DNA from: Sphingomonadales bacterium
GTDB lineage: Bacteria > Pseudomonadota > Alphaproteobacteria > SMXS01
Direction: 5' to 3'
Length of the DNA: 52,597 bases
Assembly (NCBI GenBank): GCA_022844405.1
Contig: JALHLV010000025.1
Location: 1-52,597 of the forward strand
The notes beneath the pieces are model-generated. The model saw only the letters and a list, made by a program, of their open reading frames with translations. It made no database searches and had not been told where the DNA came from. The first letter of the stretch is position 1; each line of letters opens with the position of its first letter. The translations under genes were made by a program, and so were the position numbers. Positions 36,667 to 51,757 of this stretch are shown in pieces.

Positions 36667-38010
36667 ATGGCTACGAAGGCGGCGGCTGTCGTGGGGTTCA
36701 CACCGCCCTTCGATCCGGCGAAACCCTTGCCCGACCTGGGCGCCGACCGGATATCCGGCGAACGCTTCCATTCCCGCGAATGGATGGACCTGGAATGGAC
36801 CCGCATGTGGCGCCGGGTCTGGAACATGGCGTGCCGCGAGAGCGACCTGCCCGATCCGGGCGATACCTTCACCTACACGCTCGGCAAGGAAAGCTTTGTC
36901 TTCGTGCGCGGCCACGACCGGCGCATCCGCGGCTTCTACAACGTCTGCCAGCACCGCGGGAACCAGCTGATGCTGAACGGCGAGGGCTGCGGTCATGTGG
37001 ATAGCTTCCACTGCGGTTATCACGGCTGGCAGTGGAACATCGAGGGCGTGTTGCAGCACATCCCCGACGTCGAGACCTATCCCCAGTTCAGGGACGGCGT
37101 GCCGGCCTCGGCGCTGGGCATGGAGCCGGTCGAGGTCGACATCTGGGCGGGCTGGGTGTTCTTCCGCATGGACCCCGGCGGCGAGTCGCTGCTCGAGTTC
37201 CTCGATCCGCTGCCCCGCCATCTCGACACCTATCAGATCGGCAAGTGGGACATCGTCGATTACAAGACCTTCGAGTGGCCGTGCAACTGGAAGGCCGCCT
37301 GCGACGCGTTCAACGAGAGCTACCATTTCCAGTCGCTGCATCCGCAGATGATGCAGTGGTCGAACGGCATCGCCATCGTCGAGCTGCTGGGCATCCACAG
37401 CCGCATGGTCAATGAATACGGCACCGCCGATCCGCGCTATCACGACCAGGAAAAGCCCGGCCCCGAGCTGCGCGCCTATATGGGCATGCGCGGCATGGTG
37501 CCGGAGCCGGACTGGACGCCGAAGGATGTCCGGCTGGAGATCCAGCGGCAGAAGCGGGCGGCGCAGGACGTGGTGGCCCATCTGCCCTACCGCGACATGC
37601 GCGACGACCAGCTTTCCGACGTCTACCACTACACGTTCTTCCCCAACGTCTCGTGGAACGTCACCTCGGAATCGATCACCGGCTTCCGCTACCGGCCGCA
37701 TCCGACCGACCCGAACGTGTGCTACTACGACCTGTTCCTCATGGGCCACCTGCCGCCGGACGCGCCCAAGCCCGACTACACCCACCGGGTGATCCCGAAG
37801 GACAAGCTGCCGCGCTCCTACCGCGACGTGCTCGACATGGACCTCAATCCGATCATCTCCAAGGTGCTGGAGCAGGACGGCGCCAACCTCGGCGCGGTGC
37901 AGCAGGGCCTCAGCTCCGACGGCTTCAAGGGCATGGTGCTGTGCGACCAGGAACTGCGGGTGCGGCTGTTTCACAACGTGGTGGCCGACTACGTCGAAGG
38001 CCGCCGCTGA
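36667..38010 (+). CDS. Rieske ring-hydroxylating oxygenase alpha subunit
   Basis: An aromatic-ring-hydroxylating dioxygenase large subunit of 447 residues. The Rieske cluster ligands are Cys94-x-His96 and Cys116-x2-His119. The mononuclear iron site is shown by NESYHFQSLH with His220 and His225. The substrate is not evident; no beta subunit or reductase is encoded beside it, so electron transfer must come from elsewhere. It is divergent from the PhyH/EthD pair and its stop shares one base with the ATG of the hydratase gene, showing coupling. Confidence 0.9.
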   Translation: MATKAAAVVGFTPPFDPAKPLPDLGADRISGERFHSREWMDLEWTRMWRRVWNMACRESDLPDPGDTFTYTLGKESFVFVRGHDRRIRGFYNVCQHRGNQLMLNGEGCGHVDSFHCGYHGWQWNIEGVLQHIPDVETYPQFRDGVPASALGMEPVEVDIWAGWVFFRMDPGGESLLEFLDPLPRHLDTYQIGKWDIVDYKTFEWPCNWKAACDAFNESYHFQSLHPQMMQWSNGIAIVELLGIHSRMVNEYGTADPRYHDQEKPGPELRAYMGMRGMVPEPDWTPKDVRLEIQRQKRAAQDVVAHLPYRDMRDDQLSDVYHYTFFPNVSWNVTSESITGFRYRPHPTDPNVCYYDLFLMGHLPPDAPKPDYTHRVIPKDKLPRSYRDVLDMDLNPIISKVLEQDGANLGAVQQGLSSDGFKGMVLCDQELRVRLFHNVVADYVEGRR

Positions 38011-38819
38011 TGGGCGTGGTCACGCTGGAGCGGCCGGCCGACGGGGTCGCGCTGGTCACCATGACCAATCCCGCCATCAACAACCATCTCTCATGGGCCG
38101 GCGTCCACGAGCTGTGGCAGGCGCTGATCGAGGCGCGCGAGGGCGGCGCGCGGGTGACCGTGCTGGCGTCGGGCGTACCCGGCCACTGGCTGGAGCACGC
38201 CTGGCTGCGCGACATGATCAACATGTTCCAGCGCAGGGAGGTTTCGGGGCCGGGCGACGGCTGGTTCGGCTGCCTCGACGAGCTGTCGAAAGCGCCCGTC
38301 GTCTCGATCGCCGCCATCTCGGGCGACACCTCGGGCGGCGGCTGCGAACTCGGCTGGGCCTGCGACCTGCGCGTCGCCGAGGAGCAGGTGTGCTTCAGCC
38401 AGCCCGAGGTGCGCATCGGCGTCGGCACCGGCATCGGCGGCACCAGCCGCCTCGTCCGCCTGATCGGCCGCACGGTGACGGCCGAGATGGTGCTGGACGG
38501 CGGCCCGGTCAGCGCGCGACGCATCTACGAACTCGGCGGCATCAACAAGGTCGTGCCTCAGGGCACGGCCGTCGAGGCCGCGCTGACCTGGGCGAAGCGC
38601 ATGGCCGGCCACCCGCCCGAGGCGCTGGCCGGCATGAAGCGCATGCTCGCCCAAGCGGAAGAGAACCCGCTGACCGAGGCCATCATGAACGACCAGAAGA
38701 TCTTCCAGGAAATCTCTCGTAAGCCCGTCGCCATCGCGAAGATGGAAGAGGTGCAGGCGAAGTTCGACGCCGGCGCGGGGATCAGGGAGACGTATTGGCC
38801 GGATGAGATCGAGCCGTAA
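38010..38819 (+). CDS. enoyl-CoA hydratase/isomerase family protein
   Basis: A crotonase-superfamily protein of 269 residues. The oxyanion-hole region is AAISGDTSGGGCELGWACDL, followed by SQPEVRIGVGTGIGGTSRLV, where Glu residues in the two usual catalytic positions (GGGCEL and QPEV) are present. The C-terminal helical domain has ALAGMKRMLAQAEENPLTEA. Its coupling to the Rieske gene suggests a CoA-thioester step after ring or side-chain oxidation. The 3' end of this gene is repeated 677 bases downstream. Confidence 0.88.
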   Translation: MGVVTLERPADGVALVTMTNPAINNHLSWAGVHELWQALIEAREGGARVTVLASGVPGHWLEHAWLRDMINMFQRREVSGPGDGWFGCLDELSKAPVVSIAAISGDTSGGGCELGWACDLRVAEEQVCFSQPEVRIGVGTGIGGTSRLVRLIGRTVTAEMVLDGGPVSARRIYELGGINKVVPQGTAVEAALTWAKRMAGHPPEALAGMKRMLAQAEENPLTEAIMNDQKIFQEISRKPVAIAKMEEVQAKFDAGAGIRETYWPDEIEP

Positions 38820-39042: not shown

Positions 39043-39117
39043 GGTTACCGAGCTCGAAAGACGCCGAAGGCCGATCTCGATAGGGCCCGCAAGCGCAAGA
39101 AGGAGATCGAACGATGA
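39043..39117 (+). pseudogene. C-terminal remnant of HigB/Gp49-like toxin
   Basis: After the in-frame stop TAA 39040-39042 the frame reads GYRARKTPKADLDRARKRKK and then EIER before TGA 39115-39117. This fits the conserved C-terminus of HigB/Gp49 toxins, which has a KKTxKTP core then a Lys/Arg-rich helix. The rest of the toxin is missing: no matching codons are seen upstream, where a REP-like palindrome lies. The stop overlaps the antitoxin start as ATGA, as in intact higBA pairs. The fragment is short, so the call is moderate. Confidence 0.55.
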
Positions 39118-39428
39118 GCAAAGCGAAATCGGCGGCGGAACGCCCGTCCGCACGCGGGCGCATCGGATCGAGCTTTGATGCGCTCCTGAAGGAGACCGGC
39201 GATTACGAAGCGGTGAAGGCGACCGCCCTGAAACGGGTCCTGGCTTGGCAGATTGTCCAGGAGATGAATGCGCAGGGTGTCACCAAGACCGAACTCGCGG
39301 CGCGCATGGAAACCTCCCGGAGCCAGCTTGACCGACTGCTCGATCCCACCAATGACGAAGCGATGCTCTCGACGCTCGCGCACGCTGCCGAGGCGCTCGG
39401 GCGCGAGATCAAGCTGGAGCTCGCGTGA
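39114..39428 (+). CDS. HigA-type XRE antitoxin (apparently orphan)
   Basis: A 104-residue protein with a basic N-terminus and a helix-turn-helix domain (VTKTELAARMETSRSQLDRL, LDPTNDEAMLSTLAHAAEAL) followed by GREIKLELA. This is the layout of HigA antitoxins of the HTH_37 type, which bind Gp49-like toxins. Its toxin partner appears to survive only as a C-terminal fragment overlapping the start, so this may be an orphan antitoxin or repressor. Confidence 0.82.
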   Translation: MSKAKSAAERPSARGRIGSSFDALLKETGDYEAVKATALKRVLAWQIVQEMNAQGVTKTELAARMETSRSQLDRLLDPTNDEAMLSTLAHAAEALGREIKLELA

Positions 39429-39445
39429 CGTGAGCGAGGACGAAA

Positions 39446-39497
39446 GCCGGCGCGGGGATCAGGGAGAGGTATTGGCTGGACGAGGGCGAGCCGTAAG
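39446..39497 (+). repeat. direct repeat copy B (diverged hydratase 3' end)
   Basis: This copy matches 38769-38820 at 47 of 52 bases. In the matching frame it would encode AGAGIRERYWLDEGEP and the stop, so it could be the tail of a lost hydratase paralogue. The toxin remnant, antitoxin and REP-like palindrome lie between the two copies. Confidence 0.85.
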
Positions 39498-39566
39498 CGC
39501 GTATGCCATCAATGTCATCCAATCAGTCAGGGTCGTCGATTAAATTCATTGTCGCCATAATTCCGA

Positions 39567-40421
39567 TCACTCGACTCCAGCCGGGGTCAGTGGCTGGGTC
39601 GACAGGCACCAGTTTTTGCCGTTGTACCAGGATGAACGGTCTGGGGCGTGTCCCGCGATGCGTCGAATGGTTTGAACCGCATCCATATCACCACGCTGGA
39701 ACGATAGCTTAAGACTGGTCTCCAGCGCTGGATCTTGTGCCCCGACACAAGGCACGAACATGGCTCGCGATATAAACTTGGCGCTCAAGCCAAGATCTGT
39801 GTTCGTGACGAGAAGCATGCCTCCCCAATCCCACCCCGCGGTCAACGGAAAAATCAGCCTTCCATTCGGCTTGAGGGAATAAATCCAGGCGTCTGGAGGT
39901 TCGGTGGCCCCAGCGCTCACATATATGACATCGCAGGGGGGAAGGGGCGCTTCCGCTCCCGACCTGCACGCTACGAAAACATTCTTCCGACTTTCGAGAT
40001 TACTGAGTGCTTCCTTGGCGAGTAAGGGCTCTATCTCCAAAGCGTAGACGACACCGGTAGGTCCAACGAGCTCGGCCAATATCGCGGTGTAGTAGCCAGA
40101 GCCACACCCGATGTGGAGTACGTGGTCGCCCGGCATTGGCGCAACGGCCGCCATACAGCGCGCATGGAGGCTGGGTTCCCCGTTATTGATCAGTTTTTCA
40201 GGCACCAGGCCGATGACCACGTCGTCGTACAGGAGAGTAGGGTCTATCGAATTGGTATTGGAATAGCCGTTGTCGGTCAGGAACTTCCATGGGCCAGGAC
40301 CTACGAAGCGTTCCCGTTCAACCGAAGAGAATGCCCTTGCGACCCTGGAGTCATCAATGCCGGCCTTTGCCGTTATCATTTCCGCGTAACGCCGCCTGAC
40401 GTTGTTCATATCGGCGCTCAC
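39567..40421 (-). CDS. divergent protein-L-isoaspartate methyltransferase-like protein
   Basis: A 284-residue SAM-dependent methyltransferase of the PCMT type. The SAM loop is VLHIGCGSGYYTAILAEL and the next strand VYALEIEPLLAKEALSNL. The canonical PCMT motif GQTIS before the SAM domain is replaced by NNGEPSLHARCM, and the N-terminal GYSNTNSIDPTLLYDD part is unusual, so the substrate may not be isoaspartate. The C-terminal part (FQRGDMDAVQTIRRIAGHAP) is unlike standard PIMT. GTG 40421 follows AGGGAG by six bases; ATG 40427 would be too close to it. It is 31 bases after the TPR gene. Confidence 0.7.
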   Translation of the reverse strand: MSADMNNVRRRYAEMITAKAGIDDSRVARAFSSVERERFVGPGPWKFLTDNGYSNTNSIDPTLLYDDVVIGLVPEKLINNGEPSLHARCMAAVAPMPGDHVLHIGCGSGYYTAILAELVGPTGVVYALEIEPLLAKEALSNLESRKNVFVACRSGAEAPLPPCDVIYVSAGATEPPDAWIYSLKPNGRLIFPLTAGWDWGGMLLVTNTDLGLSAKFISRAMFVPCVGAQDPALETSLKLSFQRGDMDAVQTIRRIAGHAPDRSSWYNGKNWCLSTQPLTPAGVE

Positions 40422-40452
40422 CGGCATCTCCCTGGATCGCGGCAACAGCTTA

Positions 40453-43059
40453 TCAATTCCTGGTGGCCGGCTTTCCCGTCACCGGTGCAGTCTCGAACGG
40501 GTACTGGAACGGCCGCTCGGCCAGCTCTTTCTCGCTGAGCGCGCACGTGGCCTGATAGGCAAGCGGCTTGATGCGGCCGATCCGATTAACTGCCTCCAAG
40601 GCCTTCGGGTCCGACTTCAGACGTTCCAGAAAGGCTTCGATTCTCCTGTCGAACTCGGTACGGGCGGGAATACCTGTGACTTTGTTGAGACTCATGAGCA
40701 GATAGCGCCCACGTTCCGGGTCTTCCGCGGCTTCGCCGATGATTGCCAACAAGCGGTCGTAGGATCGCAGCATCCCGAGGGGTTCCAAGGCCGCGACAAG
40801 ATTGTCGCGCCAATGCGTCTCCAGATAGTCGAGCGCCTCGGTGCGTCCTTTGGCGTCGTCCAACCCATCGAACGCGAATGCCCTGATGCGATGCGCGATC
40901 ACCTTGCCGAATGGCGTGATTCCACGCTGCAACGCCAGATCGCTCAGGATTACCGCCTTTGCGTATTGTCCAGTCGCCACCAGCAGATCCGCGTAGTCCA
41001 GGAGTAGTTCGGTAGTCTGGAGCCCCGGAAGCCTGATAAGACCTTCGTCATAGATTTTTGCCGCTCCGTCCAGGTCACCTTGGTCGATCTGCAGGTCCCC
41101 CACCAACATATAGGCGTCATTGCCCGCACCGTGCCATTCCTCGTATCGGGGCGCCGTTTTCAGCAGGCGCAGAGCTTCGTCCAGTGCTTGTCGGCGGCAG
41201 CCCAGCATTCTCAGATGCGCAATCGCGTTGACCGTTTCGGCCAGCGACTCCGGGGCGGCCGCGTGCTGCCTATAGAACAGTTCGAAGCTTTTTCGGTCGG
41301 AAGTCAGTGGGTCGAACGTTGCCTTGAATTCCGCATTGTTCCACAGGGCTCGGAATTCGCCATCGACCGTGGCGAGTGAGTTATGGGTCGACTTGATGCG
41401 CATCAGCGTGGCGAGAGCCTTGGCCGTCTCGCCCCGGTGCATCTGCTCCCGGGCCGCCAGGTAACTGAAGATGTCCTGCTTGGTCGGAGGGGGCTTGAAG
41501 ATGTCGAGCAGCTCGATCGCAAGCGGCCAGGTCGGCTCGCGCTGCAGCGAGAAAACGATTCCGGGGACGACGTGAATGATCTGCGGATCGTCCGACCCAT
41601 GCAGCCTGATAAAGTCGATCGCAAGGCGAGCAGCTTCGTCGCGCCGGCGCAGATAGTGCAGGGCGCTAATCCGCAGGGTTTGGTCATATGCCGTCATCTC
41701 GCCTTGCGAAATCAACTCATTGGCCACGCCGAGCGCTTCTCCGTGACGGTCGCTTTGGAGAAACGCCATGCCCCGAAGGCGCAATGCACTTGGCTCGTTC
41801 GGCATGATCTCCAGCATGCGCGTGGTTAGCGCGAGAGCTTCGACCGATTTACCTTGGTCCATCAGGCAGACAGCGTGATCTCCCAGCGCGGCAGCGGAGT
41901 TCTGCAACTTTGCGGGCAGTTTCTCGAGGTAGGCCGCGCCTTGATCGCAGTCCCCGCGCCGGAGCGCTGCGATGGCCTTGAAGACGAACAACTCGGAATT
42001 TTCGGGCGTCAGTTGCAGCAGCTCGTCCGCAGTCTTCTCCGCGCCTTCGACATCGTTGCGCAGGAATTTTTCGTGCAGTTCATAGCCCAATGCGGTCACC
42101 CGTCCTGCATCCGGCTTCAGGGTGATGCGGGCCTGCCGCAGGACATCGGCGGCCCGCAACGGATTCTTGACCGCATAGGCCTGGAAGTCCTGCTGTGCGC
42201 CGGCGTTGTCGCCCAGCCGCTGCTTCAGGCTGGCGCGCCACAGCAGCAGGTCGGGCTCCGGACTGCCCAGCGTAATGGCCTTGTCGAGGTCGGCGATGGC
42301 CGGCGCGCTCTCTTGGCGCGCCATCAGAATATAGGCGCGCAACAGGTAGCCTTGCGGATTTGCCGGCAGCAGCGCGACGGCCCGTGTCAGGTCGGCCATC
42401 GCCTCATCGGTCTCGCCCTGGGCGATCAGGAGCTGTGCCCTGATCAGCAGCAGTTCGCCCGCGCGGTCGGATTGCCGGATCAGGTCGCCGAGCATTGACA
42501 TGCCCTCGTCGCTACTGCCCGACCCGATCAGCAGCAGCGACTTGTTCATCATCGCGGGCGGATATCCAGGGGCCATGGCCAGCGCCCGGTCCGTATCGGC
42601 GATGGCGCCTAGCAGATCGTTCATCCTGGCACGGGCCCAACCCCGCTGCAGCAGGGCGTCGAGCATGCCGGGCTCCAGTGACAGCGCGCGGTTGAACTCC
42701 ACGATGGCGTCGAACTGCCTGTTATCGATCTGCAGCAGCACGCCGCGGATGAAATACAGCGAGGGCGACAGCGGGCGCCGGATGATCTGCTCGTCGAGTT
42801 CCCTGAGCGCAGCCGGCGACTTGCCCTCGGCCTGCAGTTTGATGAGGCGCTGGAGCAGCGCGTCGTCGTCGCTGCCGGCCAGACCGTCGCCGGGCAGCTG
42901 GTTCATGCACTGCTCGATGGGGTAGGCGTCCAGCGGGTCGAGCGTGCTGCAGAACGAGCGTTGCTCGGGCAGATCTGGCGTCATGGCGTAGGTAGCTGGC
43001 GCGGCAGCCAGCATCACAAGCATCGACAATCGGCGAACAAACAGATCAATGAATCGCAT
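40453..43059 (-). CDS. secreted TPR-repeat protein (copy 2)
   Basis: An 868-residue protein with a signal peptide (LFVRRLSMLVMLAAAPATYA) and many TPR-like helix pairs (RPLSPSLYFIRGVLLQIDNR, QFDAIVEFNRALSLEPGMLD). It ends with the motif CALSEKELAERPFQYPFETA, shared with the neighbouring copy. The expected site is the periplasm; function unknown. ATG 43059 gives the signal peptide; the open frame to 43143 is not used. Its DNA is less GC-rich than that of copy 1. It lies 64 bases after copy 1 and 31 bases before the methyltransferase gene. Confidence 0.8.
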   Translation of the reverse strand: MRFIDLFVRRLSMLVMLAAAPATYAMTPDLPEQRSFCSTLDPLDAYPIEQCMNQLPGDGLAGSDDDALLQRLIKLQAEGKSPAALRELDEQIIRRPLSPSLYFIRGVLLQIDNRQFDAIVEFNRALSLEPGMLDALLQRGWARARMNDLLGAIADTDRALAMAPGYPPAMMNKSLLLIGSGSSDEGMSMLGDLIRQSDRAGELLLIRAQLLIAQGETDEAMADLTRAVALLPANPQGYLLRAYILMARQESAPAIADLDKAITLGSPEPDLLLWRASLKQRLGDNAGAQQDFQAYAVKNPLRAADVLRQARITLKPDAGRVTALGYELHEKFLRNDVEGAEKTADELLQLTPENSELFVFKAIAALRRGDCDQGAAYLEKLPAKLQNSAAALGDHAVCLMDQGKSVEALALTTRMLEIMPNEPSALRLRGMAFLQSDRHGEALGVANELISQGEMTAYDQTLRISALHYLRRRDEAARLAIDFIRLHGSDDPQIIHVVPGIVFSLQREPTWPLAIELLDIFKPPPTKQDIFSYLAAREQMHRGETAKALATLMRIKSTHNSLATVDGEFRALWNNAEFKATFDPLTSDRKSFELFYRQHAAAPESLAETVNAIAHLRMLGCRRQALDEALRLLKTAPRYEEWHGAGNDAYMLVGDLQIDQGDLDGAAKIYDEGLIRLPGLQTTELLLDYADLLVATGQYAKAVILSDLALQRGITPFGKVIAHRIRAFAFDGLDDAKGRTEALDYLETHWRDNLVAALEPLGMLRSYDRLLAIIGEAAEDPERGRYLLMSLNKVTGIPARTEFDRRIEAFLERLKSDPKALEAVNRIGRIKPLAYQATCALSEKELAERPFQYPFETAPVTGKPATRN

Positions 43060-43123
43060 GCGCTTTCCCCAAACGCCGTCACGAGCTTGCCCCGAAATCG
43101 TGAGGCCGACAATGCCTGCGATA

Positions 43124-45715
43124 TCAGGGAGTCGAGGCCGCATCCCCCGTCACCGCCCCATTCTCGAACGGGTACAGGAACGGCCGCTCGGCCAGTTCCT
43201 GCCTGGTCAGCGGGCAGGTCCTGCTTTCGGGCAAAGTCAGGATGCGGCCCGTCGGTTTCAGCGCCGCGAGGACGCGCGGGTCGGTGCGGAGGCGGTCGAG
43301 CATCGCCAGTTCGCGGCGCTCGATGTCGGACGTCGCGGGTGTGCGCGGCCGCACGTGCAGGCTGTCCAGCAGCGCGCGGCCGTCGCCGGGGGCGCGCAGA
43401 GTCTCCACCAGCGCAACCGCCCGGTCGAAGCCGCGCAGCAGGCCGACGGCCATGACCGCGGCGATCGGATTGCCGGCGGCATGGGCCTGCGCATAGTCGA
43501 GCGAGGCGTCACGCTCCTTGCGCCGGCCCGCCGCGTCATGGGCGAGGGCACGGATGTAGTGGGCCATGACGATGGCGTAATCGTAGGACGGACTGATCGC
43601 CTCGGCCCGCGCCACGCGCTCAATCGCCGCGTCGTAATCGCCGTTCCCCAGCATCACGAACGCCGCGTTGAGCATCAGCGGCAGGGTGTAGGGGTTGTCC
43701 GGCCCCAGCCGGGCGATGCCGTCGTTCCAGACGGCGAGCGCCGCGCCGGCGTCGCCGCGCTTGAGCGCCTCGTTGGCGATGGTCTCGAACACGGGCACGC
43801 CGAACTGGTCCTGGTCCGCATAGCGCGGCAGCGATAGGGTCATGCGCCGGGCGGCGCTGGCGGCCTCGCCGCCGCAGCCCATCTGCTGCAGCACGCTCAT
43901 GGCGTAGACCGCCGCGAACAGGTCTTCCGGGTTGCGCGTGTGGTTTTCCCACGCGGCCTCGAACGACTTCCGGTACAAGGCCGTGCCGTCGAGCGGCTGC
44001 CGCAGGACGGCTGCGTCCCACAGCGGCGCATAGACGGCGTCGCTGCTCGCCGCGAGCAGCACGTCATGGGCGCCGATCCGGTTCACCAGCGCCTCGGCCT
44101 CCTGCGTCCTGCCGGCATGCACCAGCGACCGGGCCTTCAGGAACAGCTCGAAATCCTCGCCCTGGGACGGCGGCGTGGCGACCGCCAGCAGGTCGTCGGC
44201 CAGCGTCCAGGTGTCGCCGGACTGCAGCCGCCAGACCATATCTGCCACGGCGCGCAGCAGGGTGTCGTCGGCCGGCTTCTTCTCGCGCAGATAGGGCAGT
44301 GCCGTCTCGCCGGCCTCGGCGGTGCGGTCGAGGAAGTAGAGGCTGAGGATCTGCATCTGCCACGCCCAGTCGCCATATTCCTCCGACGCGCGCAGCGTGC
44401 CGAAATCCGGCAGCGCGCCGGCGAGGTTGCCGGCCTCGTAGCGGAAGGTGGCGCGGGTCTGCAGGTACATATCGTCGTCGGGCGAGAGACTGACCGCGTT
44501 CTCGATGGCGGCGAGCGCCGTGTCGCGGTCGCCGCTGCCCCACAGCACCTTGGCGCGGATGTACTGGCTCTCGGCGGTCTTGCCGATGCTGGATTCGAGC
44601 TCGTCCAGGTCGGCCAGCGCCAGCGCGCGGTCGCCCAGCGCCTGCGAGGCGTAGGCGCGCACCATCAGCACCGCCGGGCGCGCCCAGGGCGTGGTCGCCA
44701 GCACCTGCTCGGCGATGGCGCGGGCGCCCCTGGCGTCGCCCTTCTCGATCTTGATCACCGCCAGCATCAGCCGGGGCAGGGGATCGCCTGGGCCGTCGCC
44801 AAATAGCGACGGCAGCTCGGCCTGCATCGCCGGATCGGCGCCGGGATGCTGCCGGTGCAGCGCCGCCAGGTCGGCGATGGCGCCTTCCGCGTCGCCTTTC
44901 GCGGCCTTCGCGCGGCTGCGCAGCACGATCAGGAACGGATCCTGCCCGCCCAGCGACAGCGCCTTGTCCACGTCGGTCAGCGCGCCGTCCATGTCGCGGC
45001 GGTCGAGCCGGATGCGCGCCCGCACCGCATAGACCGACGGATCGTCGGGCGCCGCTTCCGCGGCCTTCTCGGCGTCGGCCGCGGCCACGTCGAGCCGTGC
45101 CAGATCGGCCAGCGCCGTCGCCTTGACCAGCCGCAGCCAGACGAAATCGGGCGCCAGCGATGCGGCGTCGTCGAGCAGCGTCAGCCCCTCGCTCTCCCTG
45201 CCGGCGCGCAGCAGGATCAGGCCCTTGTAGGCCAGCGCCGCCGGGTTCTCGCCGACGATGGCGAGCGCGGCGTCGATGTCCGCCAGGCCCTGCGCCGTGT
45301 CGCCCAGCCCCGCGCGCACCAGGCCGCGATGGGCCAGCGCCACCGTGTTCTGCGGATCGAGCGCGACGGCCTTGTCGAACGCCGCGATTGCGTCGGCGTC
45401 CCGGTGCAGGCGCATCAGCGCATAGCCGCGCATGAACGCCACGTCGCCGTTGAACGGCTGCCTGGCGGCCAGGGCGTCGATGGCCACCAGCGTCATGGCG
45501 TAGTCATAGGCCTGGAACGCGGTGCTGACCGCCATCCACTCGCGGACGCCGTCCTCGGGCTCCTTCGGTGTCTTTTGCGCGCACTCAATCCCCGACGGCA
45601 GGCCGCAGTCGGGCCGGATCGGGTCGATCTTCCGGTCGGGCGGCGCGGCGGCGAATGCCGGGGCGCTGGCCAGCAGCAGGACCAAGAGCCATGCACGCAG
45701 AATGCCTGTCCTCAT
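43124..45715 (-). CDS. secreted TPR-repeat protein (copy 1)
   Basis: An 863-residue protein with a signal peptide (ILRAWLLVLLLASAPAFAAA) followed by the Cys-containing PDCGLPSGIECAQK. TPR-like repeats fill the rest (NGDVAFMRGYALMRLHRDAD, AIAAFDKAVALDPQNTVALA). The C-terminus has CPLTRQELAERPFLYPFENG, matching copy 2. It starts at ATG 45715, overlapping the oxidoreductase stop as ATGA. The open frame up to 46171 is the antisense of no gene but lies inside the oxidoreductase in another frame. Paralogy with copy 2 is clear from the shared layout and end motif. Function unknown. Confidence 0.82.
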   Translation of the reverse strand: MRTGILRAWLLVLLLASAPAFAAAPPDRKIDPIRPDCGLPSGIECAQKTPKEPEDGVREWMAVSTAFQAYDYAMTLVAIDALAARQPFNGDVAFMRGYALMRLHRDADAIAAFDKAVALDPQNTVALAHRGLVRAGLGDTAQGLADIDAALAIVGENPAALAYKGLILLRAGRESEGLTLLDDAASLAPDFVWLRLVKATALADLARLDVAAADAEKAAEAAPDDPSVYAVRARIRLDRRDMDGALTDVDKALSLGGQDPFLIVLRSRAKAAKGDAEGAIADLAALHRQHPGADPAMQAELPSLFGDGPGDPLPRLMLAVIKIEKGDARGARAIAEQVLATTPWARPAVLMVRAYASQALGDRALALADLDELESSIGKTAESQYIRAKVLWGSGDRDTALAAIENAVSLSPDDDMYLQTRATFRYEAGNLAGALPDFGTLRASEEYGDWAWQMQILSLYFLDRTAEAGETALPYLREKKPADDTLLRAVADMVWRLQSGDTWTLADDLLAVATPPSQGEDFELFLKARSLVHAGRTQEAEALVNRIGAHDVLLAASSDAVYAPLWDAAVLRQPLDGTALYRKSFEAAWENHTRNPEDLFAAVYAMSVLQQMGCGGEAASAARRMTLSLPRYADQDQFGVPVFETIANEALKRGDAGAALAVWNDGIARLGPDNPYTLPLMLNAAFVMLGNGDYDAAIERVARAEAISPSYDYAIVMAHYIRALAHDAAGRRKERDASLDYAQAHAAGNPIAAVMAVGLLRGFDRAVALVETLRAPGDGRALLDSLHVRPRTPATSDIERRELAMLDRLRTDPRVLAALKPTGRILTLPESRTCPLTRQELAERPFLYPFENGAVTGDAASTP

Positions 45716-46722
45716 TCGAGGCTGACCATCAGCTTGCCCTTGTTCGAGCCGTCGAACAGCGCGCGGAAAATCGCCGGCATGCGGGTGAAATCGGTGCGGA
45801 TGTCCTCGCGGGCGTCGATCTTGCCCGCCCGGTACCAGTCCTCGAGCTGGACCAGCGCATCGTCGATCCGGTCGGCGAAGTCGGGCAGCAGGAAGCCCTC
45901 GATGAAGGCCCGCTTGACCAGCAGGTTCCACAGATTGCGCGGGCCGGGGCGCGGCTCGGTGTCGTTGTATTCGGCGATGGAGCCGTTCATGACGATGCGG
46001 GCGCGCATGTTGATGTTGTCGAGCACGGCCTCGAGCATGGGGCCGCCGACATTGTCGTAATAGATGTCGATGCCTTCCGGGCACGCCTGTCTGACCGCGG
46101 CCGACAGGTCGCCGGCGGTGCGGTAGTTCAGCGTGGCGTCGAAGCCCAGCACGTCCTCCAGGTAGCGGCACTTCTCGTCGCTGCCGGCCGAGCCGACCAC
46201 GTGGCAGCCATAGATTCTGCCGATCTGGCCGGCCAGCGTGCCCATGTTGCCGGCGGCGCCGGAGATGAACAGGGTCTCGCCGGCCTTCGGCTTGCCGATG
46301 TCGCGCAGCGCGATCAGCGCGCTGCAGCCCATGCCGCCCAGCAGGCTGTTGTATTTGGCCAGCGGGATCGTGTTATCGGCCGGCAGCTTGCGGAACACGA
46401 AGCCGGCGCCGAGCAGCGAATACTCCGACCACGAGCCGATGGCGTAGAGCCGGTCGCCGACCGGGTAATCCGGGTTGCGCGAGCTGATCACCTCGCCGAT
46501 GACGCCGGCGCTCACGGCTGCGCCCAGCGGAATCGGCGGGAAGTAGTTGCCGCCCTTGTCCATCCAGCCGCGCTGCGCCGGATCGACCGACAGGACCAGG
46601 TTGCGGGTGACGAATTCACCGTCGCCGGGTTCCGGCACCGGGCTTTCGATCAGCTCGAAGTCGGCGTCGGCGGGCACGCCCGTGGGGCGACGCTTCAGGA
46701 TCCACTGGCGATTGGTGGTCAA
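45712..46722 (-). CDS. CurA-like NADP-dependent oxidoreductase (MDR family)
   Basis: A zinc-free medium-chain reductase of 336 residues. It has LSVDPAQRGWMDKGGNYFPP near residue 45 and the NADPH loop FISGAAGNMGTLAGQIG, then the DIYYDNVGGPMLEAVLDNIN and MRARIVMNGSIAEYNDTEPR segments that resemble CurA/leukotriene B4 dehydrogenase proteins. TTG 46722 with GGAGG seven bases upstream gives the usual N-terminus (TNRQWILKRRPTG); the open frame to 46821 is longer than the family. It is the first gene of the TPR operon and faces ppk2 away. Confidence 0.85.
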   Translation of the reverse strand: MTTNRQWILKRRPTGVPADADFELIESPVPEPGDGEFVTRNLVLSVDPAQRGWMDKGGNYFPPIPLGAAVSAGVIGEVISSRNPDYPVGDRLYAIGSWSEYSLLGAGFVFRKLPADNTIPLAKYNSLLGGMGCSALIALRDIGKPKAGETLFISGAAGNMGTLAGQIGRIYGCHVVGSAGSDEKCRYLEDVLGFDATLNYRTAGDLSAAVRQACPEGIDIYYDNVGGPMLEAVLDNINMRARIVMNGSIAEYNDTEPRPGPRNLWNLLVKRAFIEGFLLPDFADRIDDALVQLEDWYRAGKIDAREDIRTDFTRMPAIFRALFDGSNKGKLMVSLE

Positions 46723-46819
46723 GGGTGGCCTCCGCCGGATTGTTGCCCGTGCAGGTTTCTGTGACATACTGCGCGCAGCCGACCATACCACCATCCGGCG
46801 GGACAAGGGCAGCAAGCGC

Positions 46820-47611
46820 ATGAAAAAGGCGGATCAGGAGCAGGCGCCGATCATCGACGACGCCGAGTACAAGGAGCGCCTGCTGCAGCTCCAGATCGAA
46901 CTGGTCAAGATGCAACGGCACAACATCGCCAACGACCGCAAGGTGCTGGTGATCTTCGAGGGCCGGGACGCGGCGGGCAAGGACGGCACCATCAAGCGCG
47001 TCGTCGAGCATATGAGCCCGCGCGAGACGCGGGTCGTGGCGCTCAGCAAGCCGACCGATCGGGAAAAGACCGCCTGGTATTTCCAGCGCTGGGTGGAGCA
47101 TCTGCCCATGGCCGACGAGTTCGTGGTGCTCAACCGCAGCTGGTACAACCGCGCCGGCGTCGAGCGGGTGATGGGCTTCTGCGCCGACGACGAGCTCAGG
47201 GAGTTCTACGAGACCGTCGGCTTCTTCGAGCAGATGCTGATCCGCTCGGGTCTCGTGCTGTTCAAGTACTATCTCGACATCTCGAAGGACGAACAGAAGA
47301 AACGCCTCAAGGAACGCCGGCGGGATCCGCTGACCCAGTGGAAGGTCAGTCCCATCGACGCATCCGCGACCAAGCTGTGGAAGCAGTACAGCGCGGCGCG
47401 CAACGACATGTTGGCGCATACCCACAATCCGGCCGCGCCGTGGACCATCGTCAAGGCGGACCACAAGAAGACGGCGCGGATCAACCTGATCTCGGACATG
47501 CTGTCGAGGCTCGACTACGAGGGCAAGAAGGAGAAACTGATCCGGTGCAATCCATCCATCGTGTTCACCTATGATCCTTCCTATGTGGAGAATGGGCTGA
47601 TCGCGCCCTGA
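46820..47611 (+). CDS. ppk2: polyphosphate kinase 2
   Basis: PPK2 phosphorylates nucleoside diphosphates with polyphosphate. The 263-residue protein has Walker A GRDAAGKDGTIK, the motif NRSWYNRAGVERVMGFC, and the lid/Walker B part VLFKYYLDISKDEQKKRLKE, with the length and layout of single-domain class I enzymes. ATG 46820 begins MKKADQEQAPIIDDAEYKER. It is followed two bases later by the CYTH-CHAD gene, which suggests a polyphosphate unit. It is divergent from the CurA-like gene. Confidence 0.92.
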   Translation: MKKADQEQAPIIDDAEYKERLLQLQIELVKMQRHNIANDRKVLVIFEGRDAAGKDGTIKRVVEHMSPRETRVVALSKPTDREKTAWYFQRWVEHLPMADEFVVLNRSWYNRAGVERVMGFCADDELREFYETVGFFEQMLIRSGLVLFKYYLDISKDEQKKRLKERRRDPLTQWKVSPIDASATKLWKQYSAARNDMLAHTHNPAAPWTIVKADHKKTARINLISDMLSRLDYEGKKEKLIRCNPSIVFTYDPSYVENGLIAP

Positions 47612-47613
47612 CC

Positions 47614-49113
47614 ATGGAGATCGAGCTCAAGCTGACGGTCTATCCGGGCGACGTGCCCGCCATATTGCGGGCGGTGGGCGACGTGGCGTCGGTCGTCCAG
47701 CCGCCGGCCGTGAGGCGGCTGGAGAGCCGCTATTACGACACGACCTGCCGCAAGCTGAAGTCGAGCGGCATGACCCTGCGCGTGCGCCGGGTCGGGCAAC
47801 GGTTCATCCAGACGGTCAAGACCGAGGGCGACGGCCTGTTCGCCCGCGGCGAGTGGGAAAAGCCGGTGGCGTCCTTCGCGCCGGAACTGGACGGCCACGC
47901 CGACGGCCTGCGCGAAGCGTTCGTCACCGATATCGAGCGCAACAGGCTGGTGGCCTGCTTCCCGGCCTGGCGCGCAGATCCAAGCCGTATCGAACTGGCC
48001 ATCGACACCGGCGTGATCCGCGCCGGCGGGCGCGAACTGCCGGTCAACGAGGTCGAGCTCGAGCTGATCGACGGCGCCGCTGCCGACCTGTTCGACCTGG
48101 GCGCGCGGCTCGCCGAGCTGGTGCCGCTGCGGCTTTCGATCGACGCCAAGTCGGCGCGCGGCTACCGGCTGGCCGAGGATACGCCGCCGCCTTCGGTCAA
48201 GGCCGAGCGGCTGGAGTTCCCCGACGACATCACGCTGGAAGACGGCATGCGCGAAAGCCTGCGGGCCTGCATCCGGCAGTGGCTGGCCAACCAGGCCTCG
48301 GCATTCGACGGCCGCGATCCGGAGGGCGTGCACCAGATGCGTGTGGCGCTGCGCCGGCTGCGCTCGGCGATCAACTTCTTCCGGGATTTCATTCCGGATC
48401 CACCGCTGGAAGAGTTCCGCGACCAGTCGAAATGGGCGGCGGGTAGCCTGGGTCCGGCGCGGGACTGGGACGTGTTCCTGCTGGAAACCCTGCCGCCGGT
48501 GATGGAGCTTTGGCCCGAACACCGCGGCCTGCGGGCTTTGCACGACGGCGCCCGGCGGATGCGGGACGAGGGATACACCGAGGCGCGGGTGGCCATGAGC
48601 TCGCCCGCCTATACCGTGTTCGCCCTGCGCCTGGCCGGATGGGTCGAGCGCCGTGGCTGGCGGTCGGGACTGTCCGAGGAAGCCATGAAGGCCGTGAAAC
48701 GGCCCATGACCGAGCATGCCGGCGGCCTGCTGGACCGGCTGTACCACCAGGCGCTGGACGCGGGCGCCGACTTCGAAAGCCTCGACGCCGAGGCCAAGCA
48801 CAAGCTGCGCATCGCGCTGAAGAAGCTGCGCTACGCGGGCGAGTTCTTCCGCGGCCTCTATCCGCGCAAGGATGTGAAGAAGTTCCGCGACGCGCTCACC
48901 GACATGCTCGACCTGCTCGGCAAGCTCAATGACCTGACCGTGGCCCAGGGCCTGTGCGGCAAGCTGATGGAAGCGGCCGACGACGATGAGGCGCCGGCGT
49001 CGGGCACCGCAACGCTGGTGACGTTCCACGAGCAGCGCGGCCACGTATCGGACAAGGCGCTGTCGAAGGCCTGGGCCGACCTGCGCGGCGCCGATCCGTT
49101 CTGGCGGGATTAG
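47614..49113 (+). CDS. CYTH-CHAD domain protein (inorganic triphosphatase-like)
   Basis: A 499-residue protein. The N-terminal CYTH domain starts MEIELKLTV with the E-x-E-x-K motif and continues with RRLESRYYDTTCRKLKSSGM; such domains hydrolyse inorganic triphosphate. From about residue 200 a CHAD domain follows (PEGVHQMRVALRRLRSAINF and KHKLRIALKKLRYAGEFFRG), a Lys/Arg/His-rich helical fold known to bind polyphosphate. It begins two bases after ppk2, so polyphosphate use and clearance are probably co-regulated. The two hairpins after the stop form a bidirectional end. Confidence 0.92.
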   Translation: MEIELKLTVYPGDVPAILRAVGDVASVVQPPAVRRLESRYYDTTCRKLKSSGMTLRVRRVGQRFIQTVKTEGDGLFARGEWEKPVASFAPELDGHADGLREAFVTDIERNRLVACFPAWRADPSRIELAIDTGVIRAGGRELPVNEVELELIDGAAADLFDLGARLAELVPLRLSIDAKSARGYRLAEDTPPPSVKAERLEFPDDITLEDGMRESLRACIRQWLANQASAFDGRDPEGVHQMRVALRRLRSAINFFRDFIPDPPLEEFRDQSKWAAGSLGPARDWDVFLLETLPPVMELWPEHRGLRALHDGARRMRDEGYTEARVAMSSPAYTVFALRLAGWVERRGWRSGLSEEAMKAVKRPMTEHAGGLLDRLYHQALDAGADFESLDAEAKHKLRIALKKLRYAGEFFRGLYPRKDVKKFRDALTDMLDLLGKLNDLTVAQGLCGKLMEAADDDEAPASGTATLVTFHEQRGHVSDKALSKAWADLRGADPFWRD

Positions 49114-50602: not shown

Positions 50603-51757
50603 ATGATCCGCGACCAGGAAATCTTCAGCCAGCTGCGCGACACCATCCGCCGCTTCGTCAATGAGCGCCTGATCCCGGCCGAGGACAGGGTGGTCGAGGA
50701 CAACGCCGTGCCGGCGGAAATCCTGCGGGAGATGCGCGAGATGGGCCTCTATGGCATGACCGTGCCGGAGGACTATGGCGGGCTGGGCCTGACCACCGAG
50801 GAAGAGGCCTACATCATCATGGAGCTGGGCCGTGCGTCGCCGGCCTTCCGCTCGAAGATCGGCACCAACAACGGTATCGGCTCGCAGGGCATCGTCATCG
50901 ACGGCACGCCCGAGCAGAAGGCGCGGTTCCTGCCCAAGGTGGCGTCGGGCGAATATGTCGCGTCCTTCGCGCTCACCGAGCCGGACGCCGGCTCCGACGC
51001 GGCGAGCATCCGCACCACGGCGATCCTCGACGGCAACGAGTACGTGGTGAACGGCACCAAGCGCTATATCACCAATGCCGCCGATGCGTCGATCTTCACC
51101 CTGATGGCACGGACCGACCCGTCGAACAAGGGCGCCGGCGGCGTCTCGGCGTTCATCGTCGAGAAGGACAGCCCCGGCCTCACCGTCGGCAAACCCAACA
51201 GGAAGATGGGCCAGGCCGGCGCCAACGTGTACGACGTGATCTTCGAGGATTGCCGCGTGCCGGCCGCCAATCTGATCGGCGGCGTTCCCGGCCAGGGCTT
51301 CAAGACCGCCATGAAGACGCTGGACCGCGGACGCCTGCACATCTCGGCGCTGTGTGTGGGCGTGTCGCAGCGGCTGGTGGAAGAATCGGTGCGCTATGCC
51401 ATCGACCGCAAGCAGTTCGGCCAGGCCATCGCCGAGTTCCAGCTGGTCCAGGCCATGCTGGCCGACAGCCGCACCGAATCCTACGCCGCCCAGTGCATGG
51501 TGCTCGATGCCGCCCGCAACTACGACGCCGGCAACCGCAACGTCGGCGACATCGCCGCCTGCAAGTATTTCGCCTCGGAGATGGTGGGCCGCGTCGCCGA
51601 CCGCGCGGTGCAGATCCACGGCGGCGCGGGCTACATGTCCGAATACGCCGTCGAGCGCTTCTACCGCGACGTGCGCATCTTCCGCATCTACGAGGGCACC
51701 TCGCAGATCCAGCAACTGCTGATCGCGCGCAATTTGATCAAGGAGTTCCGCGGGTAA
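50603..51757 (+). CDS. acyl-CoA dehydrogenase
   Basis: A flavin-dependent dehydrogenase of 384 residues that introduces the alpha-beta double bond into acyl-CoA. The FAD/substrate motif is FALTEPDAGSDAASIRTTAI, and the C-terminal domain has QIHGGAGYMSEYAVERFYRD and RIYEGTSQIQQLLIARN, where the Glu in IYEGTSQ is the usual catalytic base. The acyl chain specificity cannot be told. It is monocistronic here. Confidence 0.92.
   Translation: MIRDQEIFSQLRDTIRRFVNERLIPAEDRVVEDNAVPAEILREMREMGLYGMTVPEDYGGLGLTTEEEAYIIMELGRASPAFRSKIGTNNGIGSQGIVIDGTPEQKARFLPKVASGEYVASFALTEPDAGSDAASIRTTAILDGNEYVVNGTKRYITNAADASIFTLMARTDPSNKGAGGVSAFIVEKDSPGLTVGKPNRKMGQAGANVYDVIFEDCRVPAANLIGGVPGQGFKTAMKTLDRGRLHISALCVGVSQRLVEESVRYAIDRKQFGQAIAEFQLVQAMLADSRTESYAAQCMVLDAARNYDAGNRNVGDIAACKYFASEMVGRVADRAVQIHGGAGYMSEYAVERFYRDVRIFRIYEGTSQIQQLLIARNLIKEFRG

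Follow-up and report, generated by a model that had tools for sequence, protein, structure and literature searches.

Four genes on the minus strand are closely packed in a stretch of 52,597 nucleotides from a Sphingomonadales bacterium, hereafter the window, which is the entire contig of a 3.78 Mb genome (G000). They encode a CurA-like reductase, two TPR proteins (TPR1 and TPR2) and a PCMT-like methyltransferase. The initial annotation treated them as one operon of a form for which it knew no described system. The question raised by this locus is whether the four genes belong to a single system or are neighbours with separate histories.

Organization of the locus

The coordinates, strand and spacings first reported for the four genes were exact, with -4 bases between the CurA-like gene and TPR1, 64 between TPR1 and TPR2 and 31 between TPR2 and the methyltransferase gene (Table 1). 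The word "giant", applied there to TPR proteins of 863-868 residues, was overstated. A promoter scan of positions 39400-47000 gave 0 sigma-70-like sites, and 7 terminator-like sites were located in the same interval compared with 4.1 expected.

Table 1. Positions of the features discussed in the text (window coordinates unless a locus is named)
Feature	Position	Strand	Remarks
Rieske oxygenase gene	36667-38010		Pfam Rieske; precedes enoyl-CoA hydratase
Enoyl-CoA hydratase gene	38010..38819	(+)	Pfam ECH_1; conserved downstream border
PCMT-like methyltransferase, NNG-x-P subfamily	39567..40421	(-)	GTG start
TPR2	40453..43059	(-)	868 aa; fast-evolving tandem paralogue
TPR2 C-terminal motif, residues 839-856 CALSEKELAERPFQYPFE	40492..40545	(-)	Invariant columns; position computed from residue numbers
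TPR1	43124..45715	(-)	863 aa; exported TPR superhelix protein (predicted), genus-conserved
TPR1 C-terminal motif, residues 834-851 CPLTRQELAERPFLYPFE	43163..43216	(-)	Position computed from residue numbers
CurA-like reductase	45712..46722	(-)	TTG start
PPK2 gene	46820..47611	(+)	Pfam PPK2; conserved divergent neighbour, fixed upstream border
CYTH-CHAD gene	47614-49113		Pfam CYTH, CHAD; after PPK2
FkbM-type methyltransferase	L027 9018-9731; L045 8972-9727	(-)	Directly downstream of TPR1 (G006) or CurA (G002)

The locus lies between stable borders. Genes for PhyH, a protein that we take to be EthD-like, Rieske oxygenase and enoyl-CoA hydratase form one side, and those for PPK2, CYTH-CHAD, DUF4010 and acyl-CoA dehydrogenase form the other. 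The order PPK2/CYTH-CHAD was kept in G001-G005, the contig of G006 ending short of that border, and the order Rieske/enoyl-CoA hydratase was kept in G001, G002, G004, G005 and G006, the contig of G003 ending before it; in G004 the locus is split by contig ends. Between these borders, gene content varies among members of the genus. The acyl-CoA dehydrogenase (window 50603-51757, plus strand) was 95-98% identical in the five congeners covering that stretch, compared with roughly 57-92% for other genes of the locus, and thus appears unusually constrained.

Distribution of the four genes in the genus

The comparison covered seven genomes of the genus (G000-G006, G000 being the window genome) among ten of the order; seven genomes are few, and some are incomplete (G004 78%, G006 84%). 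TPR1 was present in six of the seven and absent from G002. A CurA-like ortholog was detected in four (G000, G002, G005 and G006, in the last broken over two contigs), a TPR2-type copy in two (G000 and G004, in the latter as two fragments at contig ends), and the PCMT-like methyltransferase in G000 only. All four genes occurred together in 1/7 genomes, the window genome, and a four-gene system is therefore unsupported. The proposed operon is thus not linked as a whole in relatives, the outcome that the initial annotation itself had named as refuting it. The gene order was conserved for one pair: CurA and TPR1 were tight neighbours in 3/3 genomes encoding both, with gaps of -4, 13 and 12 bases (the first ATG being used as the start in G005 and G006).

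The place downstream of these genes is occupied differently in different members. FkbM-type methyltransferase genes, 55% identical to each other, were located there in G002 and G006 (2/10 genomes of the family). G005 carries genes for a Gp49-like toxin and an HTH antitoxin; in G003 the gene encodes a Phenol_MetA_deg protein, and the ORF in G001 has no Pfam match. Some methyltransferase, FkbM-type or PCMT-like, is therefore encoded in the locus in three of the seven genomes, which might point to a genuine functional slot.

The window also contains an orphan HTH antitoxin-like gene (39114-39428, plus strand), 86% identical to the antitoxin of the intact Gp49/HTH pair in G005 (L026 6493-7151). 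Of the toxin, the search upstream of the orphan gene recovered no more than 19 residues that match its end. In PADLOC, the HTH gene and the G005 toxin were marginal matches.

A new anti-phage system was considered and rejected, since CurA, TPR1 and TPR2 had no PADLOC match. Against the Mad2 model (492 positions), the PCMT-like methyltransferase gave a match of 115 residues (E 9.1e-17), read as the methyltransferase domain that they share. An aspartimide/RiPP system was also rejected: the methyltransferase scored 81.2 against a cut-off of 320 (TIGR04364) and 60.5 against 380 (TIGR04188), no paper joined three or more of the four terms sought, and the search for precursor genes covered the ORF list. 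For a CurA/TPR/PCMT operon, too, no paper joined three or more of the four terms sought.

The CurA-like reductase

The first gene encodes a CurA-like, NADPH-dependent double-bond reductase of the MDR superfamily. Pfam ADH_N_2 (111.7 bits) and ADH_zinc_N (61.9 bits) were both over cut-off. The protein shares the same domains over its full length with CurA/2-alkenal reductases (PDB 4b7c, E 4.6e-86), but differs from the CurA curcumin reductase in scoring 293.8 bits with the NCBIfam CurA model (NF058644), below the cut-off of 440. The orthologs in G002, G005 and G006 were 80-87% identical, and G001, G003 and G004 had a paralogue at 48-49% as their best match. With 22 of its 26 candidates scored, the window genome encodes at least 12 CurA-like homologues at E<=1e-60. 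Across the seven genus members, 5 to 15 CurA-like reductases were counted in each, with up to 22 candidates scored. The reductase would be cytoplasmic; its gene frequently sits just before TPR1, with no functional link apparent.

A methyltransferase without GQTIS

The methyltransferase was over cut-off with Pfam PCMT (PF01135; 88.6 bits, cut-off 20.3) and under cut-off with the NCBIfam PCMT equivalogs (91.9 against 188 and 73.4 against 159.05). The GQTIS motif is a hallmark of canonical PCMT (protein-L-isoaspartate O-methyltransferase). Its reported absence from the window protein was confirmed, NNGEPS standing in its place, but the protein is no isolated oddity. It lacks GQTIS because it belongs to a subfamily, labelled NNG-x-P in this analysis, in which that pattern was found in 9 of 11 rows including P0004; two rows from G051 vary. 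The window genome itself encodes two stronger PCMT matches, one with GQTIS (L076) and one without (L077).

Among 96 relatives the PCMT-like methyltransferase was detected in four at E<=1e-15, and in none of the six other genus members. The GC3 of the gene is 0.64 compared with 0.88-0.93 for most neighbours, which suggests recent arrival. A tblastn search against plasmids matched 424 records, which may include ordinary PCMTs; 99 of them cover at least 80% of the query. Rhizobium accounted for 199 of the 424 records and Sinorhizobium for 114, and among the best 25 matches, 19 were from Rhizobium, Neorhizobium or Agrobacterium. The NNG-x-P methyltransferases of rhizobial and burkholderial plasmids resemble the window protein at 34-47% identity, mostly over full length. 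Their surroundings differ: the four annotated plasmid neighbourhoods list no TPR gene, in PLSDB gene tables that are incomplete, and contain VgrG (type VI), tra/trb genes, ribokinase, MsrA and ABC transporter genes, and CoA transferases, respectively, with no common neighbour evident among the four. The remaining two of six neighbourhoods were annotated with nothing but one predicted resistance gene. The methyltransferase is probably a mobile orphan that was recently acquired.

These data bear on the idea of a working modification system, in which the methyltransferase would modify Asp or isoAsp in the TPR proteins and the reductase would supply or detoxify a small molecule. The tight packing of the four genes on one strand is consistent with it, as is the presence, in the three genomes mentioned, of a methyltransferase beside CurA, TPR1 or TPR2, though of differing families. 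The restriction of the PCMT-like gene to one of the seven genomes, its foreign composition and the plasmid neighbourhoods listing no TPR gene all argue against it. Moreover, the methyltransferase has no signal sequence as judged by eye and the TPR proteins look exported, so that they would meet only before export. We consider such a modification system very unlikely.

Two probably exported TPR paralogues

An alignment of TPR1 with TPR2 spans about 790 residues (32% identity, E 4e-101), which makes them true paralogues. Both N-termini carry a hydrophobic, export-like segment by eye, ending in AFA in TPR1, and the sizes first given were exact. Several Pfam models (TPR_2, TPR_16, TPR_14, TPR_19 and others) were over cut-off in both proteins, and PrsT (TIGR02917) reached 82.9 and 92.3 bits, under its cut-off of 312.2. 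As first supposed, no described family among the curated ones covers the pair, only generic TPR models and matches below cut-off.

AF2 models, built on seven-row alignments, had a mean pLDDT of 80.2 (TPR1) and 79.6 (TPR2) and are nearly all helix, forming helical solenoids. The TPR1 model, with which the fold searches were run, matched the TPR domain of OGT with a VIA Z of 21.3 (rmsd 8.3 over 241 residues), a comparison resting on TPR1 residues 47-297. Fold and profile matches were generic TPR scaffolds, namely OGT, Tom70, designed TPRs and LbcA, and a distinctive non-TPR fold was rejected on the fold lists of this model. The first cysteine of each protein is residue 37, beyond the signal-like segment, and no lipobox is visible by eye. 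An extra cysteine pair of TPR2, C371/C398, was found in 2/2 TPR2-type copies and 0/6 TPR1-type copies.

Distribution and inheritance of the TPR proteins

TPR1 orthologs were 50-88% identical in five of the six other genus members. The three remaining genomes of the order, which belong to the same family, had none at E<=1e-15, and the six matches at E<=1e-20 among 96 relatives were all within the genus. The family profile was run on 385 class genomes, an even sample of a larger group with at most two candidates scored each, and matched five of them at E<=1e-30; three of these belong to the genus and two matched through their C-terminal half alone. In the family of G342, 1/10 genomes matched the profile. 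In the order of G370, 5/15 did: G370, G396 and G399 through the C-terminal half, G086 and G406 through generic N-terminal repeats alone. The C-terminal-half relatives (L051, L052, L059 and L060), from other alphaproteobacterial families, are like TPR1 along about 410 C-terminal residues up to a GRI motif (E 4.7e-40 to 7.3e-32). They are unlike it in that only this half of the profile is matched and in having neither the tail motif nor Cys614. A related-locus search with TPR2 alone found no relative, and against plasmids TPR2 gave partial generic TPR matches, with 0/32 records covering 80%.

TPR1 is under purifying selection, with dN/dS of 0.20-0.32 for the whole protein in ten pairs without G006 and 0.58-0.68 in five pairs with G006. 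Between G000 and G006, TPR1 was 50% identical, while PhyH, Rieske and enoyl-CoA hydratase were 80-84%, the CurA piece 87% and the subtilase 68% identical; TPR1 therefore changes faster than its neighbours.

A tree built from the C-terminal parts placed the second copies of G000 and G004 together (support 96/95), with both branches long and flagged as unsure by the program. Identity between these copies was 34% in the C-terminal and 28% in the N-terminal piece, compared with 84% for the TPR1 copies of the same two genomes. The N-terminal fragment of the G004 second copy was 30-35% identical to TPR1 proteins and 28% to TPR2, which counts against a shared origin of the second copies. GC3 was 0.92 in TPR1 and CurA, 0.77 in TPR2, and 0.80 and 0.85 in the pieces of the G004 second copy. 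The results fit an old duplication and, for TPR2, loss and fast change; alternatively, G000 and G004 may have gained their copies separately.

The C-terminal motif

The end motif reported for both TPR proteins is present in both and was recognisable in 8/8 family C-termini, which exceeds a chance resemblance. Its exact wording fits four of the eight by eye (both window proteins and the TPR1 of G001 and of G004). Invariant positions in the eight, in TPR1 numbering, are T833, C834, L836, E840, L841, P845, P849 and E851. The tail and Cys614 occurred together in all eight and were both missing from 4/4 C-terminal relatives, which come from other families and whose alignment stops just before the tail. 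The comparison left out L061, L062 and L063 (G086 and G406, generic N-terminal TPR only) and the N-terminal fragment of the G004 second copy. Cys614 and the tail cysteine look like disulphide partners on this sequence pattern, which spans two relative groups and may reflect a single event. The AF2 pLDDT of the tail was 84 in both blocks of TPR1 (831-840 and 841-850) and 81, 93 and 75 in the blocks of TPR2.

The motif had been suggested to be an interaction or sorting signal. As a conserved trait it stands, but its role in sorting is weakened by the predicted order and by the co-occurrence with Cys614. A sorting or secretion signal sending both proteins to dedicated machinery would agree with the C-terminal position of the motif, its conservation throughout the family and its absence from the four relatives. 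Furthermore, a scan for the tail pattern in an 84,980-species genome collection returned 18 stretches, of which five encode TPR relatives, all of this genus, and 13 encode none; the latter may be chance or other proteins, so that unrelated tail-bearing proteins are conceivable. The dN/dS of the tail (21 codons) was 0.17-0.92 over 15 pairs and above the whole-protein value in 8/15, hence not low, and the motif is not visibly more constrained than TPR1 as a whole. However, the tail is predicted to be ordered, is not hydrophobic, is followed by no basic stretch (by eye), and its cysteine occurs only with the internal one. A sorting signal is thus improbable, and a disulphide-held clasp appears likelier because the tail is predicted to be ordered and its cysteine occurs only with Cys614.

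A proposed exported scaffold with unrelated neighbours

We favour, with a probability of roughly 60%, the reading that the locus is not one four-gene machine but an exported, genus-restricted TPR1 scaffold, a fast-changing TPR2 duplicate, and unrelated CurA-like and mobile methyltransferase neighbours. For TPR1, the analysis established a family with a signal-like N-terminus, a predicted TPR fold, purifying selection and a conserved tail. After export by Sec, TPR1 would adopt a long TPR superhelix, either periplasmic or extracellular, and could act there as a passive protein-binding scaffold or adaptor; a scaffold or adaptor in the envelope is its best-supported function. Its four conserved cysteines may pair into an N-terminal disulphide (C37-C45) and a second one pinning the tail C834 onto the helices around C614, which would make the end motif a structural clasp. 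TPR2 would be an old tandem duplicate, kept in some members only, which evolves far more quickly and may have another binding partner, and the methyltransferase a recent, mobile arrival.

A more elaborate scheme would make TPR1 and TPR2 a genus-specific, disulphide-clasped exported pair, with TPR1 constant, TPR2 a fast-changing recognition partner, and a methyltransferase slot of unrelated families modifying scaffold or ligand before export. We regard it as the most improbable of the readings considered here.

With the scaffold reading, a candidate four-gene system resting on one genome is removed. It leaves one modest testable idea, that what resembles a C-terminal sorting signal caps a TPR solenoid and is held there by a disulphide, and a methyltransferase subfamily without GQTIS for which no NCBIfam model reaches cut-off and which recurs on rhizobial plasmids.

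Comparison with known systems

Among the closest known counterparts is LbcA (PA4667) of Pseudomonas aeruginosa, a TPR lipoprotein of the outer membrane with 11 TPRs and 29 helices, which activates the protease CtpA (PMC8764530). Could TPR1 likewise be the adaptor of a periplasmic protease, as LbcA is with CtpA or NlpI with Prc? LbcA is among the PDB profile matches of TPR1 (E 1.1e-13 over about 150 residues), the genes of two proteases, a trypsin-PDZ (DegP-like) one and a subtilase, lie 7-15 kb from the TPR locus, and exported TPR adaptors of such a kind are known (PMC8764530). Nevertheless, the LbcA match covers generic TPR repeats only, the protease genes are not adjacent, and no lipobox is visible in TPR1. 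A protease adaptor is therefore doubtful, slightly more so than a sorting role of the tail.

As a putative exported scaffold, TPR1 is like LbcA in being a large, all-helical TPR spiral that is exported. It is unlike LbcA in that neither it nor TPR2 has a lipobox cysteine directly after the signal (by eye), in the larger number of helices in its model, and in its cysteine-bearing tail.
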